DNA of 42,801 nucleotides from Candidatus Eiseniibacteriota bacterium (GTDB lineage: Bacteria; Joyebacterota; Joyebacteria; Joyebacterales; Joyebacteraceae). Each line of letters starts with the position of its first letter. Position 1 is the first letter of the stretch. Below are positions 683 through 21,674 of this stretch, piece after piece. The notes beneath the pieces were generated by a model, which saw only the letters and a list, made by a program, of their open reading frames with translations, was not told the DNA's origin and ran no database searches. Location: the NCBI GenBank assembly GCA_030613615.1, contig JAUWLR010000007.1, positions 1-42,801 of the forward strand, written 5' to 3'. Both the position numbers and the translations under genes were made by a program.

Positions 683-3082
683 GTGTCAAGATGCGGAAGC
701 ATGATCGCGGGCATCGTGCTCGTGTCGCTCGTGGCGGCACCGGCGGCATGCGGAACGCCGGGTGGGACCATCCACCTCCTCACCCACCCCTTCAACCCGG
801 TGGAAGGCGAGCCGGCGATCGACAGCCGGCTCAAGGCAGAGTCGCCGGCGCCGGGAGAATCCGGGTACTACCTCGTGCAGCTTGCGGGAGCCTCGACGGA
901 CGAGCGAAAGGCCGCGGTGGAAGCGCTCGGCGGCGAGCTCATCGCCTACGTGCCGGACGACACGTGGATCACGAGGATCGAGGGAGACCCGTCGGGGTCG
1001 CTGCTCGCTTCACCGGAGGTGGCGTGGGTGGGCGCGTTCCACCCGGCCTACAAGATCTCTCCCACCATCGGCACTCATGAGTTCAGGAATCCGAAGCGCG
1101 CGGGTGATTCGTTTCTGACCCTGCGCGTGCGCGTCTTCGATGATATCGCGGGCACCGCGGTCGCACTCGAGCGGCTCGGCGTTGAGGTGCTCGAGGCAAG
1201 CGACGACGGATTTCAGAAGCTTCTCGTGGTGCACTCCTCCAGACAGATGGTCAACGCCATCGCGCGTTTGCCCGAGGTCTGGTGGATCGAGGAGAAACCG
1301 GAGTTCTACCTTATGAACGACACCACGAAGTGGGTCGTTCAGTCTAACGTCAGCGGCAGCACACCGATCTGGAGCCACGGAATTCACGGAGAGAACCAGC
1401 TGGTCGCCGTGATGGACTCGGGACTGGACTACAACTCTTGCTGGTTCCGGGAGACGGGCGGAGCGGTTCCGGGGCCGTCTCACCGCAAGGTCGTCGACTA
1501 CACGGCCTACGGCGGCGGAGTCGCGTACGACGGATGCGACACGGGGCACGGCACGCACGTCTGCGGGACGCTTGCGGGCGACCAGTCGTACATCAACGCC
1601 GGCAACTACGATTACAACGGCATGGCCTACAAAGCCAAACTGATGATGCAGGACGTCGGCGCCGACGACGAGTGGGCATGTATGATCGGCGAGGTCCTGA
1701 TACCGACGAGCCTCAGCTCCGCGTACACCAACGCGTACGGGCTCGGCGCGCGCATACACTCGAACTCGTGGGGCAGCACCGAGAACTCGTACGATTCATA
1801 TTGCGTGGACATAGACAACTTCATGTGGAACAACCCGCAGTTCCTGGTTCTGTTCGCCGCGGGCAACGGGGGGCCAGGCGGCAGCACGGTCGGATACCCC
1901 GGCACCGCGAAGAACTGCATCACCGTCGGCGCGCCACGCAGGCCGCCGGACCAGGACGTGGTGGCCAGCTACTCCAGCAGAGGGCCCGCGCACGATGGGC
2001 GCTACAAGCCAACGGTGACGGCGCCCGGCGGCGAGGCCGGCTACAGCTATGTCAATTCGGCCGACAACGATCCGGGCAATCCGCCCGCGCAGACGTGCAA
2101 CATGGTCAGCGAGCCGTTCCAGGGCACGTCGATGGCGACCCCGGCGGTCGCAGGGCTGGCGGCCCTCGCCAGGCAGTATTTCGAGGAGGGGTGGTTCCCT
2201 TACGGCATGCCCACCGCAGGTGAGGAGCTCACGCCAAGCGCCGCGCTGGTCAAGGCTACGATCGTGAACTCCGGGACCGACATGGCAACGGCCGATATCC
2301 CCAACCACAACGAGGGATGGGGCCGCGTGCTCCTGAACGACGTCCTGTACTTCGACGGTGACGCGATCGAGCTGAAGCTGGAAGACGAGGCCGGAGGCGT
2401 CTCGCACGGCGGAACGAGCGACTACTCGTTCACGGTGGACAGCTCCTCTGTGCCGCTCGAGATCGCGCTGGTGTGGACGGACTATCCTGCTACCGCCGGC
2501 ACGGGCGTTGCGCTTCAGAACAACCTCGACCTGACGGTCACCGCGCCGGGCGGAACGGAGTACAAGGGGAACTGTTTCAGCGGAGGTCAGTCGGCAACTG
2601 GCGGTTCCTACGACATCAGGAACGTCGAGGAGGCCGTGCGGCTGAACGCACCTCCGACCGGCGCCTACACGATCACGGTGGACGGGACGAACGTGCCCCA
2701 CGCGCCGCAGCCGTTCGCGCTGGTCGTCACGGGGTCGTTCGCCAACTGGCCGCCCCAGAGCGGAGTCGAGGATGACCCGGTGATGGACGGCAGGGCGTTC
2801 GCTATCGAGGGCATCTCGCCCAACCCGTTCAACCCCCAGGCCGTGATCTCCTACACCCTCCACTCCGTTGAGACGGGCCAGGCGCACGTCACTCTTCGTG
2901 TGATGAGCGTGGACGGACGCGTCGTCAGCACGCTCGTCGACAGGGTCCAGGACCCCGGACCTCACGAGATCGTGTGGAACGGTACGGACGCCGACGGCTT
3001 CCCTGTCGCGAGCGGCATCTACTTCTGCGACCTGTCGTACGGCGGAGAGAGAGACACCAGGAAGATGACGCTTCTGAAGTAG
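683..3082 (+). CDS. Secreted subtilisin-family (S8) serine peptidase with C-terminal FlgD-like domain
   Basis: A GTG start is chosen because AGGAGG ends 5 nt upstream; it opens a hydrophobic signal peptide (residues ~1-24). Residues ~60-210 form a pro-region. The S8 catalytic domain follows, with the triad visible as Asp245 (VAVMDSG), His289 (GHGTHVCG) and Ser483 (GTSMATPA), and the oxyanion Asn in FAAGNGG. After it comes a jelly-roll domain of the KP-43 type (around LEIALVWTDYP). A final ~80-residue FlgD/Ig-like domain has the typical ISPNPFNP start and ends RKMTLLK. All catalytic residues are present, so it should be an active extracellular or surface protease. The C-terminal domain is common on exported proteins of Eisenbacteria and related phyla and may be a sorting or anchoring tail (inference). 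At 799 residues it is normal for this architecture. The following hairpin ends the transcript. Confidence 0.95.
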   Translation: MSRCGSMIAGIVLVSLVAAPAACGTPGGTIHLLTHPFNPVEGEPAIDSRLKAESPAPGESGYYLVQLAGASTDERKAAVEALGGELIAYVPDDTWITRIEGDPSGSLLASPEVAWVGAFHPAYKISPTIGTHEFRNPKRAGDSFLTLRVRVFDDIAGTAVALERLGVEVLEASDDGFQKLLVVHSSRQMVNAIARLPEVWWIEEKPEFYLMNDTTKWVVQSNVSGSTPIWSHGIHGENQLVAVMDSGLDYNSCWFRETGGAVPGPSHRKVVDYTAYGGGVAYDGCDTGHGTHVCGTLAGDQSYINAGNYDYNGMAYKAKLMMQDVGADDEWACMIGEVLIPTSLSSAYTNAYGLGARIHSNSWGSTENSYDSYCVDIDNFMWNNPQFLVLFAAGNGGPGGSTVGYPGTAKNCITVGAPRRPPDQDVVASYSSRGPAHDGRYKPTVTAPGGEAGYSYVNSADNDPGNPPAQTCNMVSEPFQGTSMATPAVAGLAALARQYFEEGWFPYGMPTAGEELTPSAALVKATIVNSGTDMATADIPNHNEGWGRVLLNDVLYFDGDAIELKLEDEAGGVSHGGTSDYSFTVDSSSVPLEIALVWTDYPATAGTGVALQNNLDLTVTAPGGTEYKGNCFSGGQSATGGSYDIRNVEEAVRLNAPPTGAYTITVDGTNVPHAPQPFALVVTGSFANWPPQSGVEDDPVMDGRAFAIEGISPNPFNPQAVISYTLHSVETGQAHVTLRVMSVDGRVVSTLVDRVQDPGPHEIVWNGTDADGFPVASGIYFCDLSYGGERDTRKMTLLK

Positions 3083-15022: not shown

Positions 15023-17506
15023 CTACTCCTCGATAAGCTCTGCTGCAACCTGAAGGCCCGCGATGTCCGTATCGACGAAGCCTTCGCCCGCGACGTCGAC
15101 GTGCTTGACGCTCTGCGCTTTCGACACGTCACAGAGCTCCGTCGACAGCGGTTCGATCTTTCGCCACGTCTCAGCGTCGCAGGCCACGGCCAGCACGCCC
15201 ACCGGCGTCGCGACCGAGACCTTGTTCACAGACTTGATCTTCCGCATGCCCTCTATGACCGCGAGAGCGATACGCCCCGCCTCGAGCGCCTCGGGATCGT
15301 CCCACTCGTCCCGCGGCTTGGGCCAGGCGGACACGTGTATCGACTCGACGTCCTCGCGCTCAGCGAAGAAGAGCGAGTGAATCTCCTCGGTGATGTGCGG
15401 CATTATCGGCGCGAAGAGCTTGAGCGACGCGAGAAGCGCCTGGTAGAGCGCATACTGCGCGCCGCGCCGCCCGGCCTCATCGTAGCCCTCGTCTCCGTAG
15501 AGGCGCTTCTTGGCTATCTCGATGTAGTTATCACAGAGGTCGTGCCAGAAAAAGCGCTCGCCGGCCTCGAGCGCGCCGTGGTAGTCGCAGACGTCGAAGC
15601 TTCGCGTCGCTCTGGCCACCGCACGGCCGAGCTCTGCCAGGAGCCACCGGTCGATGGTCGAAAGCTCCCGCTCGGCGCCGCCGTCGTAATCCTCCAGCCG
15701 CATGATCGCGAACTTCGACGCGTTCCACAGCTTGACCACGAGCCTGTGCCCGGCATCGAGCGGTTCCTCGGCGAGAATGGTGTCGGTTCCCAGCCTGGTC
15801 GAGCTCGCCCAGTAGCGCACGACGTCGGCGGAACGCTCCGCGACGATGTCGCTGGGAGCGGCGCCCGTTGCGCCCTTGGATTTGCTTATCTTCGCACGAT
15901 CCGGATGCAGCGTGTGCCCGGAGATCATGGCCGTGCGCCAGGGGATCTTCCCCTCGTTCAGCATGCCCTTGACCACCGTGTAGAACGCCCACGTCCGGAT
16001 GATGTCGTGCGCCTGCGGGCGCAGGTCCATGAGGTACTCGGGGCCGCCGTCGACTCCTTCCTTCTTGAAGCGATCGACGCGTGAATCGTCCTCGCCCCAA
16101 CGCAGGTTGATGAAAGGCGTGCACGACGATGTCATCCACGTATCCATGACATCTCGCTCGGGAACGAGCTCAGCAGACCCGCACTTTGGGCACGCGTCGA
16201 CGGGCGGCCACGTCACCGTCGGATCGACCGGTAGCTGCGAGTCCTCCGCCAGAACAACCTCACCGCAACCTCCGCACACCCAGAGCGGGAACGGCACGCC
16301 GTAGTACCGCTGCCTGGAGATGCACCAGTCCCACGCGAGGTTCTCCACCCAGTTCTGGAAGCGGACTGCCATGAACTCGGGGCACCACTGGACCTTCGCT
16401 CCGGCGCCGAGGATCTCCTCTTTGATATCCAGCACCCGGACGAACCACTGCGCGGCGACCGAGAACTCGATGCCTGTGCCGCACCGCTCGTGGACGTTCA
16501 CGACGTGCGTGATGGGCCTCTGACCGCGCAGGAGGCCGGCAGCCTCGAGATCCGCGACGATCCTTTTCCTCGCGTCTCCGAGCGAGAGCCCCTCGTAGCC
16601 CGGTGCGAGTTCGTTCATGCGACCGCCCTCGTCGAAGACGATGCGCATGTCGAGCTTGTGCTTCTTCCACCAGTCGATGTCCGTGGTGTCCCCGAACGTG
16701 CAGCACATGACGAGGCCCGTGCCCTTCTCGGGGTCGGCCTTCTCGTCGGGCATGATTGGCACTTCGTGACCGAAGATGGGAACGGTCGCGCTCTTCCCGA
16801 TGATCGCGGAGTAACGCTCGTCGTCCGGGTGCGCGAACATGGCGACGCACGCGGGCAGAAGTTCCGGACGAGTGGTCGAGATGACGAGGTCCTCATCCCC
16901 CAGGCCGAATGCCACGTCGTAGAAGACGGAATCGTGCTCCGCGTCCTCGATCTCCGCCTGCGCGATGGCCGTGTGACACTCGGGGCACCACAGCGTGGGT
17001 GCTTCCTTCCGGTAGACACGGCCCTTCCTGTAAAGGTCCAGGAACGAGCGCTGCGAGATCCGCTGAGAGCGCGGGTCGATGGTCGAGTAGTCTTCCTCCC
17101 AGTCGACCGAGAGCCCCAGGCTCTTCCAGAACGCGATGAAGTCCACCTCGTACTGCTTCGTGAGCTCGAGGCACATCTCGACGAACTTCTCCCTGCCCAC
17201 CTCCGTCGCCTTGACGCCCTTCTCCTTCTCGACCAGCCGCTCACTCGGGAGTCCGTTGTCGTCAAACCCGAACGGGTAGTAGACGTTGTGCCCGCGCATC
17301 CGCCAGTAGCGCGCGACCACCTCGGCCTGCACGTAGCTGAAGACATGGCCAATGTGTATCTTCCCGGACACGGTGGGAGGCGGCGTGTCGATGCTGTAGA
17401 TGGGACGGTCGGGGAACTTGTCGAACTTGTAGATCCCCCGCTCCTCCCAGTGGCGCTGCCACTTCTGCTCCGCCTCAGCGGGCTTGTACTTCTTTGGAAG
17501 CTTCAT
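15023..17506 (-). CDS. valS: Valyl-tRNA synthetase
   Basis: The protein has 827 residues. The ATG at 17506 is used because AGAGG lies ~6 nt upstream and MKLPKKYKP is the family's usual beginning; the ORF's 21 extra residues run into the leader RNA. It is a class I synthetase with HIGH at residues 51-54 (GKIHIGHVF) and the KMSKS loop as KISKS at 539-543. The CP1 editing region includes ISTTRPELLPACVAMF, and a zinc-type cluster is visible (LWCPECHTAIAQAE, VCGGCGEV, CPKCGSAEL). The length and the absence of the long C-terminal coiled coil resemble the archaeal/rickettsial ValRS subtype rather than the ~950-residue E. coli type. It charges tRNA-Val with valine. It is controlled by the valine-type T-box leader upstream and heads the glycosyltransferase run. 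Confidence 0.97.
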   Translation of the reverse strand: MKLPKKYKPAEAEQKWQRHWEERGIYKFDKFPDRPIYSIDTPPPTVSGKIHIGHVFSYVQAEVVARYWRMRGHNVYYPFGFDDNGLPSERLVEKEKGVKATEVGREKFVEMCLELTKQYEVDFIAFWKSLGLSVDWEEDYSTIDPRSQRISQRSFLDLYRKGRVYRKEAPTLWCPECHTAIAQAEIEDAEHDSVFYDVAFGLGDEDLVISTTRPELLPACVAMFAHPDDERYSAIIGKSATVPIFGHEVPIMPDEKADPEKGTGLVMCCTFGDTTDIDWWKKHKLDMRIVFDEGGRMNELAPGYEGLSLGDARKRIVADLEAAGLLRGQRPITHVVNVHERCGTGIEFSVAAQWFVRVLDIKEEILGAGAKVQWCPEFMAVRFQNWVENLAWDWCISRQRYYGVPFPLWVCGGCGEVVLAEDSQLPVDPTVTWPPVDACPKCGSAELVPERDVMDTWMTSSCTPFINLRWGEDDSRVDRFKKEGVDGGPEYLMDLRPQAHDIIRTWAFYTVVKGMLNEGKIPWRTAMISGHTLHPDRAKISKSKGATGAAPSDIVAERSADVVRYWASSTRLGTDTILAEEPLDAGHRLVVKLWNASKFAIMRLEDYDGGAERELSTIDRWLLAELGRAVARATRSFDVCDYHGALEAGERFFWHDLCDNYIEIAKKRLYGDEGYDEAGRRGAQYALYQALLASLKLFAPIMPHITEEIHSLFFAEREDVESIHVSAWPKPRDEWDDPEALEAGRIALAVIEGMRKIKSVNKVSVATPVGVLAVACDAETWRKIEPLSTELCDVSKAQSVKHVDVAGEGFVDTDIAGLQVAAELIEE

Positions 17507-17550: not shown

Positions 17551-17595
17551 ATGAAACGGGCCCTCTCATTCCACGATTGGGAACGAGAGGACCCG
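17551..17595 (-). terminator. Attenuator terminator of the valS T-box
   Basis: CGGGTCCTCTCGTTCC (17595-17580) pairs with GGAATGAGAGGGCCCG (17572-17557) over 16 bp with two G-U pairs. The loop is CAATCGT, and TTTCATTT follows. The T-box core lies just before it, so antiterminator and terminator compete. Confidence 0.85.
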
Positions 17596-17870
17596 AATGC
17601 GTCCATCCCGCGGTACCATCCCGATTCCAGGGACCCGCGGCTGCACTGCTGCCACGCGGTTCCCCGGCACTCGATTGGGGCTATGACGGGCCCACCCGTC
17701 CGAGCCTACGCGGGACCGCACTCCTGGCTCTCGCCATATGGTCCGTTCAGCCCGGCAGCTCCGGAGCGACCTTCGACCGACGCCTGCCCGGGACTCTCTC
17801 AGCCAGGGAGTCCCTCTCTCTTAGGGCGCGTTCCGGCCTACTCCTCTCCATCGCAGCCTTTGACCGCTAT
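17551..17870 (-). promoter_or_regulatory. T-box riboswitch leader of valS, valine specifier GUC
   Basis: Reading the minus strand 5' to 3': a GGAGAGGAGTAG segment opens stem I. The stem then continues as GCCC..GGGACT paired with AGTCCC..GGGC around GAGAGAG and GGCTGAGAG loop elements. On the 3' side, GAAGGTCGCTCCGGAGC places GTC (17770-17768), a valine codon, in the specifier position. A GGACC...GGTCC helix with a GAGA loop follows. The T-box core TGGTACCGCG lies at 17618-17609; its variable T (17615) would pair with the A expected at the discriminator of tRNA-Val. An intrinsic terminator follows at once. The logic is that uncharged tRNA-Val stabilises the antiterminator and valS is transcribed. 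No clear promoter of its own was found between groEL and the leader. Confidence 0.9.
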
Positions 17871-17888
17871 TCGGATGTCTCACCTGCA

Positions 17889-17906
17889 GACGCGGGTCAC
17901 CGCGTC
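17889..17906 (-). other. 7-bp hairpin just after groEL
   Basis: GACGCGG and CCGCGTC flank a TGAC loop 14 nt after the groEL stop. There is no T-run, so read-through into the T-box leader is likely. It could be a weak terminator or part of the leader's 5' structure. Confidence 0.35.
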
Positions 17907-17919
17907 CGAAGTGATGATG

Positions 17920-19590
<1,671 letters not shown>

Positions 19591-19625
19591 TTAATAGGCA
19601 GAAAACCCACGTTTCGCGCTTCGAA

Positions 19626-19637
19626 GTACGAACGTAC
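19626..19637. promoter_or_regulatory. Inverted repeat at the expected groEL transcription start
   Basis: GTACG-AA-CGTAC is a perfect 5-bp inverted repeat lying directly downstream of the groEL -10 box, about where transcription should begin. It could be an operator; no regulator can be named. Confidence 0.3.
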
Positions 19638-19666
19638 ATCATACACGCGGCGCGTGGCTGCTGCAA
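19638..19666 (-). promoter_or_regulatory. Sigma70-like promoter of groEL
   Basis: On the minus strand TTGCAG (19666-19661) and TATGAT (19643-19638) are separated by exactly 17 bp. The start codon lies 77 bp downstream, with AAAGGAG before it. Confidence 0.7.
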
Positions 19667-19667
19667 G

Positions 19668-19692
19668 CTGAAACGGGCCTCTCAGAGGCCCG
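19668..19692 (-). terminator. Intrinsic terminator after the tamA-like gene
   Basis: CGGGCCTC-TGA-GAGGCCCG on the minus strand is a perfect 8-bp stem with a 3-nt loop, followed by TTTCAG. It lies about 110 bp after the stop of the Omp85 gene and just before the groEL promoter, separating the two units. Confidence 0.65.
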
Positions 19693-19805
19693 GAGGTTGC
19701 AGATTCGGCGATGCTGAGCGCTCGCGCGGCGGGACCGGAGGGCATCCACTCGGGGGGCGTCAGAACGGCTGTCCGTCGGAGCGGGCGGACGTCGGAGCGA
19801 GGCCG

Positions 19806-21674
19806 TCAGAACGCCTGCCCCACGCTGAAGTACCACTGGACATCACCCTTCTCGGACAGCGGGGCGGCCACGTCCAGGCGCAGCAGCCCGACGCGCGTGT
19901 TGTAGCGCAGCCCCACGCCCCCGGCAACAGCGAGGTCCGAGAACCGCATCGCGTTGAAGTCAGGGAACACCTGGCCGGAGTCGACGAACACGGCGGCACC
20001 GAGCGTCTTGTAGACACGGAATCGAATCTCCCCACGGACAAGTGCGATTGCCCTCCCTCCGACGGGTTTCCGCTCTCCTTCCTCATCAGGCGGGCCAAGC
20101 GGCCCCAGTGAGTTCCTCAGGAACCCGCGGACCGTGCCCTCGCCCCCGAGGAAGTAGCGCTCGTTGATCGGAACCTCGTTCTCGCCGCCCTGAGGCTTCA
20201 CCCACCCGGTTCGCAGCTCGAGCGCGGCCACCCACCCGCGCGCGACCTTCTTGTAGCCGCGCCAGTCGATGTTGTACCGAACGAAGTCGTTGGTTCCGCC
20301 GAGCTTCTGGCTCGCGAGTTCCACCTCGGTCCTGACAAACGTGCCGCGCGTTGCGTTCAGGATGTCGTTGCGTGCGTCGTAGATGACCGCGCCGAGGATG
20401 CTCCCTGTGTAGTTCTTCTCTCCATCGCTGGTGTCGTCCACCCCCTCGAGGACCACCGTCCGGTCGTGCCTGTAGCCCCCCTCGAGCGTCAGGCGCAGAT
20501 TCAATTCCTTCGACAGAACGAAGCTCGCGCCTGTCGTCTGCGCGACGAACGACTTCTCGTCTTCCCAGCTGTAACGCGCAGCGACCTCAGCGGACACGCG
20601 CCGCCCGAGGAACCACGGGTCACCTATCGACGCCCTTACCTCCCGGGCACGCGCGCTGTACCTCCCCGTGAGACCCAGAGCCCTCGCCTGCCCCTGCACG
20701 TTCCGGTTGGAAATCCCGGCGCCCACTTCGACACCGTCGATGGCCGCGTAACCGAAGTTGAAGTCGATGTGACCGCTCGAGCGCTCGGCCACGCGTACGA
20801 CGACGCGCTTCTCCGCCCTGCCGGTATCCTCCGGGGCCGGCTCGATCCAGACGGAATTGAAGAGGCCCGTCCGATACAAGTTGACCCGCGACTCACCTGT
20901 CTTCTCGAAATCGAAGAGCTCGCCCGCCGCGAACGTCAGCTCACGCTTGACGACGTACGGTCGCGTCTTCTTGTCGCCGTACACGTCTATCGATGCGATG
21001 GACGCCTGCTCTCGCTCGGTGATGCCGTATGTGATCGTCGCGGAACGGTTCTCGTCATCGCGGACAACGTCCTGCACCACGTGCGCGTCAAGATAGGACC
21101 GGCGCGCGTACTCCTCGAGGATCGCACGTCGGTCGGAGTCGAGTTCGCCGACCATGAGCGGTGTCCCCTCCCTGACGGTCACCACGCCGCGGAGCTTCTC
21201 CTCCGGGATGACGCTTGCGCCTTCGAACGACACATCCTCTACCATCCAGCGGTCGCCCTCGTACACGCCGATCAGCAGTCTTACGCTCGTCGAGTCGGCG
21301 CTGAGCATCATGTCGTCCAACTCGACGTCGGCCTCGAGAAAGCCCTGTGAGACGTAGAATCGCTCGAGGTTCTCGAGGTCGCGAAGGAACGCGCGCCTGT
21401 CGTAGCTGGTTTTTCGGAGGGACCCGCTCTTCCTGGTCTGCATGTACGGAAGCAGCGAGTCGTCCTCGAAGCTCTCGTTCCCGATGAACAGGACGTCCGT
21501 CACGACGGGACCGGTAGGCGCACGCCTCGCGAATGTGCGCCGCACGAGAGCCGGGTCTCCCCTGGCCATCGCCCACCCGGGCGCCAGCAGGAACACCAGC
21601 GCGAGGAGCGACACCATCAGAGCGAGTCCACCACCCTTATTTGAACGGAATCTGCAACTTGAGTCCGACTGCAT
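19806..21674 (-). CDS. tamA: BamA/TamA-family outer membrane protein (Omp85)
   Basis: The protein has 622 residues from ATG 21674 (GGAAGG 5 nt upstream; basic RFRSNK then a hydrophobic signal peptide ending PGWAMA). An internal ATG (21617) is possible but would remove the positive n-region. After the signal peptide come about three POTRA domains (beginning VVTDVLFIGNESF, VEDVSFEGASVI and IASIDVYGDKK), then a 16-strand-type barrel. The barrel includes the diagnostic VRGF motif (GGEGTVRGFLRNS), GGVGLRYNTRVGLLRLD and a terminal aromatic Phe (YFSVGQAF). It inserts barrel proteins or helps build the outer membrane. The short POTRA set and the directly upstream tamB gene favour TamA over BamA, but the subtype is inferred. 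It overlaps tamB by 38 nt, showing tight co-expression. Confidence 0.88.
   Translation of the reverse strand: MQSDSSCRFRSNKGGGLALMVSLLALVFLLAPGWAMARGDPALVRRTFARRAPTGPVVTDVLFIGNESFEDDSLLPYMQTRKSGSLRKTSYDRRAFLRDLENLERFYVSQGFLEADVELDDMMLSADSTSVRLLIGVYEGDRWMVEDVSFEGASVIPEEKLRGVVTVREGTPLMVGELDSDRRAILEEYARRSYLDAHVVQDVVRDDENRSATITYGITEREQASIASIDVYGDKKTRPYVVKRELTFAAGELFDFEKTGESRVNLYRTGLFNSVWIEPAPEDTGRAEKRVVVRVAERSSGHIDFNFGYAAIDGVEVGAGISNRNVQGQARALGLTGRYSARAREVRASIGDPWFLGRRVSAEVAARYSWEDEKSFVAQTTGASFVLSKELNLRLTLEGGYRHDRTVVLEGVDDTSDGEKNYTGSILGAVIYDARNDILNATRGTFVRTEVELASQKLGGTNDFVRYNIDWRGYKKVARGWVAALELRTGWVKPQGGENEVPINERYFLGGEGTVRGFLRNSLGPLGPPDEEGERKPVGGRAIALVRGEIRFRVYKTLGAAVFVDSGQVFPDFNAMRFSDLAVAGGVGLRYNTRVGLLRLDVAAPLSEKGDVQWYFSVGQAF

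Follow-up and report, generated by a model that had tools for sequence, protein, structure and literature searches.

The question raised by this locus is whether the leader of valS, in a stretch of 42,801 nucleotides (the window), is a valine T-box, as an initial annotation had proposed, and where in bacterial diversity such an element would then belong. T-boxes are known from Firmicutes, Actinobacteria, Chloroflexi, Deinococcus-Thermus, and Geobacter relatives or a few Deltaproteobacteria and were found to be absent from Bacteroidetes/Chlorobi in surveys (PMC3766115, PMC2494555). The leader upstream of valS was indeed identified as a valine T-box by a covariance match, a GUC specifier, a cognate tRNA, covarying folds, and phylum-wide conservation.

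Structure of the valS leader

The minus strand from 17863 to 17576 matched the Rfam T-box model RF00230 over its full length (model positions 1 to 219) with 78.1 bits and an E value of 3.2e-17. An Rfam scan at curated cut-offs returned no entry for the leader because this score lies below the gathering score of 93 for RF00230, which is an annotation criterion that the leader fails and not a biological feature. In the same search, 93 was passed by only two of five control genomes with T-box matches, the other three falling short, and the Rfam cut-off is therefore strict; valS leaders from Chloroflexota and Bacilli/Clostridia that contain T-box parts scored 48 to 140 against RF00230. The initial annotation had held that a score below threshold would speak against a T-box; taken literally, the score is below it, but this is outweighed by the E value (3e-17) and the independent evidence. 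The RF00230 alignment placed stem I, the AGUA/GAA loop E, the AG bulge, the distal loop, and stem II and also the IIA/B hairpin, stem III, and an antiterminator with UGGUACC in its bulge. The features of the locus are as follows.

17920 to 19560, minus strand: groEL, the conserved upstream neighbor, whose stop lies about 50 to 60 nt before the T-box start
17576 to 17863, minus strand: T-box leader core, from stem I to the antiterminator (RF00230 positions 1 to 219; covariation in 16 relatives)
17758 to 17857, minus strand: stem I with the specifier loop (cmscan alignment; helices 1 to 5 of the covariation analysis)
17815 to 17822, minus strand: AG bulge, AAGAGAGA (cmscan alignment)
17794 to 17804, minus strand: distal loop, GGCUGAGAGAG (cmscan alignment)
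17768 to 17770, minus strand: specifier codon GUC (Val) in GAAG-GUC-G (RF00230 specifier position; invariant in 16 relatives)
17700 to 17755, minus strand: stem II (RF00230 alignment; helices 6 and 7, together with IIA/B)
17686 to 17699, minus strand: IIA/B hairpin, ACGGG-UGGG-CCCGU (RF00230 alignment; helices 6 and 7, together with stem II)
17579 to 17622, minus strand: antiterminator (RF00230 alignment; helices 8 and 9, 100% paired)
17612 to 17618, minus strand: T-box bulge UGGUACC (invariant; UGGU for the ACCA of the tRNA)
17557 to 17595, minus strand: competing intrinsic terminator hairpin of 16 bp (minimum-energy fold; 15 pairs, each formed in all 16 relatives)
15023 to 17506, minus strand: valS, archaeal-type valyl-tRNA synthetase (PRK13208; NF009687, 1030 bits)

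All the parts named in the initial annotation (stem I, its loops, GUC, the T-box, and the 16-bp terminator) occur on the minus strand, arranged in the right order. Stem I contains GGAGAGGAGUAG (minus strand), the T-box sequence in the leader is GGGAUGGUACCGCGGGA, and the leader fold was more stable than its dinucleotide shuffles (z = -3.9; 0/100). Read from the fold, GUC was at the specifier position; it is a valine codon, in agreement with the valS gene downstream. In 16 genomes the GUC, with GAA before it and G behind it, was unvarying, and block GGAUGGUACCGCGGGA was invariant across the alignment of the 16 leaders. A tRNA-Val(GAC) ending in ACCA is encoded in the genome (L073) and matches both contact points of the leader, the GUC specifier and the UGGU of the T-box bulge. 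By its sequence, the leader is a genuine, complete, and standard class I T-box. It has all structural elements, the specifier logic, the UGGN bulge, and the mutually exclusive terminator in common with the class I leaders of RF00230 and differs from RF00230 T-boxes in being G+C rich, in scoring below the curated cut-off (78 bits), and in its position about 50 to 60 nt after groEL.

Competing folds and the proposed control of valS

The terminator was formed in the minimum-energy fold of the leader, and its 5' arm overlaps the 3' arm of the antiterminator, so that the two folds are mutually exclusive. In the 16 relatives, the antiterminator-state structure comprised 43 pairs, with 99.6% of cells paired and two-sided changes at 9 pairs, a covariation that was not reached in any of 500 shuffles; helices 6 and 7, formed by stem II and IIA/B, were 100% and 98.8% paired. 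Four of the 15 fully paired terminator positions also had two-sided changes. Compensatory changes were thus present in both of the exclusive folds, and both states are therefore maintained. These results, together with the invariant specifier and T-box in 16 genomes, argue against a decayed or incidental T-box from which regulation is gone; only the 3' part is left in one relative (G006), and the T-box is to that extent dispensable, but we consider decay highly improbable.

We are strongly confident that the leader is a class I (transcriptional) T-box controlling valS. Stem I would read the anticodon of tRNA-Val(GAC) through the GUC specifier, and the free ACCA end of an uncharged tRNA would hold the antiterminator by pairing with UGGU in the T-box bulge, allowing RNA polymerase to run on into valS. 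With charged tRNA, the 16-bp terminator hairpin would incorporate the 3' arm of the antiterminator, and transcription would end before valS. A build-up of uncharged valine tRNA is predicted to switch valS on; the binding of tRNA, the termination, and the response to valine starvation are likewise predictions, whereas the sequence, both folds with their covariation, the matching tRNA, and the conservation with valS were observed. Points against this explanation are the score below the gathering cut-off, the only moderately U-rich tail after the terminator hairpin (TTTCATTTGC), and the lack of a recognized promoter, no match to a sigma-70 promoter having been found before the leader.

The valS start was placed at 17506 (MKLPKKYKP..., with RBS GAGAGGA), and the upstream ATG at 17569 of the longest open reading frame was rejected in its favor. 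The modest U tract after the hairpin would also fit a translational T-box, in which the fold adopted with charged tRNA masks the ribosome-binding site of valS and transcription is not stopped, and the 5' arm of the terminator contains UCCUCUC, the complement of this GAGAGGA. However, the ribosome-binding site follows the hairpin and is not part of it, which argues for transcription attenuation and not for masking. Moreover, the UCCUCUC arm covaries with the 3' arm of the same hairpin, and the match between the arm and the ribosome-binding site is poorer in some relatives (e.g., G013). Stem I is of full length and not of the short class II form; class II was rejected on this ground, together with the free ribosome-binding site and the presence of a terminator, and translational control is very unlikely. 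The genome contains one full ValS; the genome search found no second one, and weaker matches look like other class I synthetases.

Conservation of the locus and host lineage

The occurrence of the T-box was assessed in 20 genomes of the GTDB phylum, which comprise one family and eight genera; the relatives compared were MAG-like draft genomes throughout. The search of all 20 genomes detected exactly one T-box per genome in 16 of them (6/8 genera), in every case directly upstream of valS and between groEL and valS. In G006, the sensor is lost and the gap between groEL and valS (L038:1428-1500) holds a decayed 3' part of the T-box/antiterminator and an intact terminator hairpin (local alignment score of 59, versus 31 for the best of 300 shuffles), which looks like a secondary loss. 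G012, G015, and G018, without a match, were uninformative, valS being at a contig edge or present in fragments only.

At all 16 T-box loci, groEL was found upstream of the leader, which in 15 of them starts about 40 to 85 nt from the groEL stop. The truncated groEL tail of G002 is fused to the 5' end of the leader (L015), with about 20 groEL codons gone, reflecting either a deletion or a mis-assembly. Behind the groEL stop, the window (17864 to 17919) and relatives have a variable stretch that resembles an inverted repeat and lacks a T run, and a conserved block resembling GACAnnnGAATAGCGG, which may be a promoter element or a processing site, lies immediately 5' of stem I. Directly upstream of groEL (19560 to 19806), a groES-like open reading frame is absent, and the next gene encodes BamA. 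The genome is a draft with an estimated contamination of 5.79%, and the locus could in principle stem from binning contamination or from a mis-assembled contig of Firmicute or Chloroflexota origin. However, the order groEL, T-box, valS recurs in six genera and many assemblies, and groEL and valS diverge together; this recurrence makes either origin very unlikely.

The description of the host as an apparent FCB-type diderm was right in kind. The window (G+C content of 65%) carries diderm genes for BamA, a TamB-like protein, and an LPS heptosyltransferase, and the named relatives are "Candidatus Eisenbacteria" CSMAG genomes, which we take to be cold-seep MAGs. A subtilisin-like S8 protease encoded at 683 to 3082 has a T9SS-type match at its C terminus that is weak and falls below the curated cut-off. 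Since the single-family phylum, the habitat, and the G+C content fit, this is probably Ca. Effluviviacota (GTDB VGIX01), a cold-seep phylum that has been placed next to Eisenbacteria and Latescibacterota and for which a Gram-negative wall is predicted (PMC11323493).

ValS phylogeny and origin of the leader

In the ValS tree, the phylum grouped with Fermentibacterota (93/86) and then with Chloroflexota, and this set was separated from archaea and Firmicutes (100/98); groupings of Chloroflexota with the phylum or with Fermentibacterota were not rejected (p-AU of 0.38 each). No T-box was found in 42 Fermentibacterota genomes, and a T-box motif was present at 9 of the 11 Chloroflexota valS loci in the first ValS tree. 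These Chloroflexota T-boxes precede the same class of target gene (archaeal-type valS) and share with the phylum leaders a similar distal loop (GGCUGAGAG) and a IIA/B hairpin (CGGGU..GCCCGU); of the five aligned, four have the specifier GUC (L099, L108, L111, and L118) and one has GUG (L119). Unlike at the phylum loci, groEL was not found in the neighborhood examined. Firmicutes T-boxes of archaeal-type valS also lie directly before the gene, but the leaders shown in full (L131, L162, and L145) have the specifier GUA and are less G+C rich, and their ValS branch is separate from that of the phylum.

By nhmmer, the nearest leaders outside the phylum were L004 of G058 and three Chloroflexota valS leaders; the closest (L004:1501-1777) is a T-box with a GUC specifier that precedes an acetolactate-synthase-like gene. 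The phylum leaders were more like Chloroflexota valS T-boxes than like other Chloroflexota T-boxes (one-sided P = 0.018) in a comparison that was small and post hoc and whose "other" set included one second valS T-box (L179). The latter belongs to G091 (Chloroflexi), which has two different valS-like genes, L119 and L179, each with its own T-box and, apparently, with the specifiers GUG and GUA.

The initial annotation had offered transfer of the leader with or without the archaeal-type valS, and transfer with the gene gains in plausibility from the Chloroflexota valS leaders. The likeness suggests a common transfer of leader and gene but is no proof of it; a simple reading is joint transfer with loss of the leader in Fermentibacterota, independent acquisition being an alternative. 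A published T-box tree was called unreliable (PMC2494555). More tentatively, and with the chances rather against it, T-box and archaeal-type valS may have been exchanged as one module between the Chloroflexota lineage and the FCB-side phylum, with Fermentibacterota having lost or never had the leader, and may have come to lie behind groEL. There, the T-box might attenuate a groEL-valS transcript from within. The chaperonin unit would then be tied to the charging of valine tRNA.

No published report of a T-box for this lineage was found in the literature, of which coverage was partial. The predicted mechanism follows the textbook; the novelty lies in the phylum, in the conservation of the element throughout it as its only T-box, and in the groEL neighborhood. 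With this single-copy T-box, which is conserved and covaries throughout a Gram-negative candidate phylum, a lineage is added to those known to carry such leaders, and the Rfam cut-off hides G+C-rich T-boxes of uncultured phyla. Since the history of the gene can be set against that of its leader, the locus is a case for studying the spread of T-boxes between phyla.
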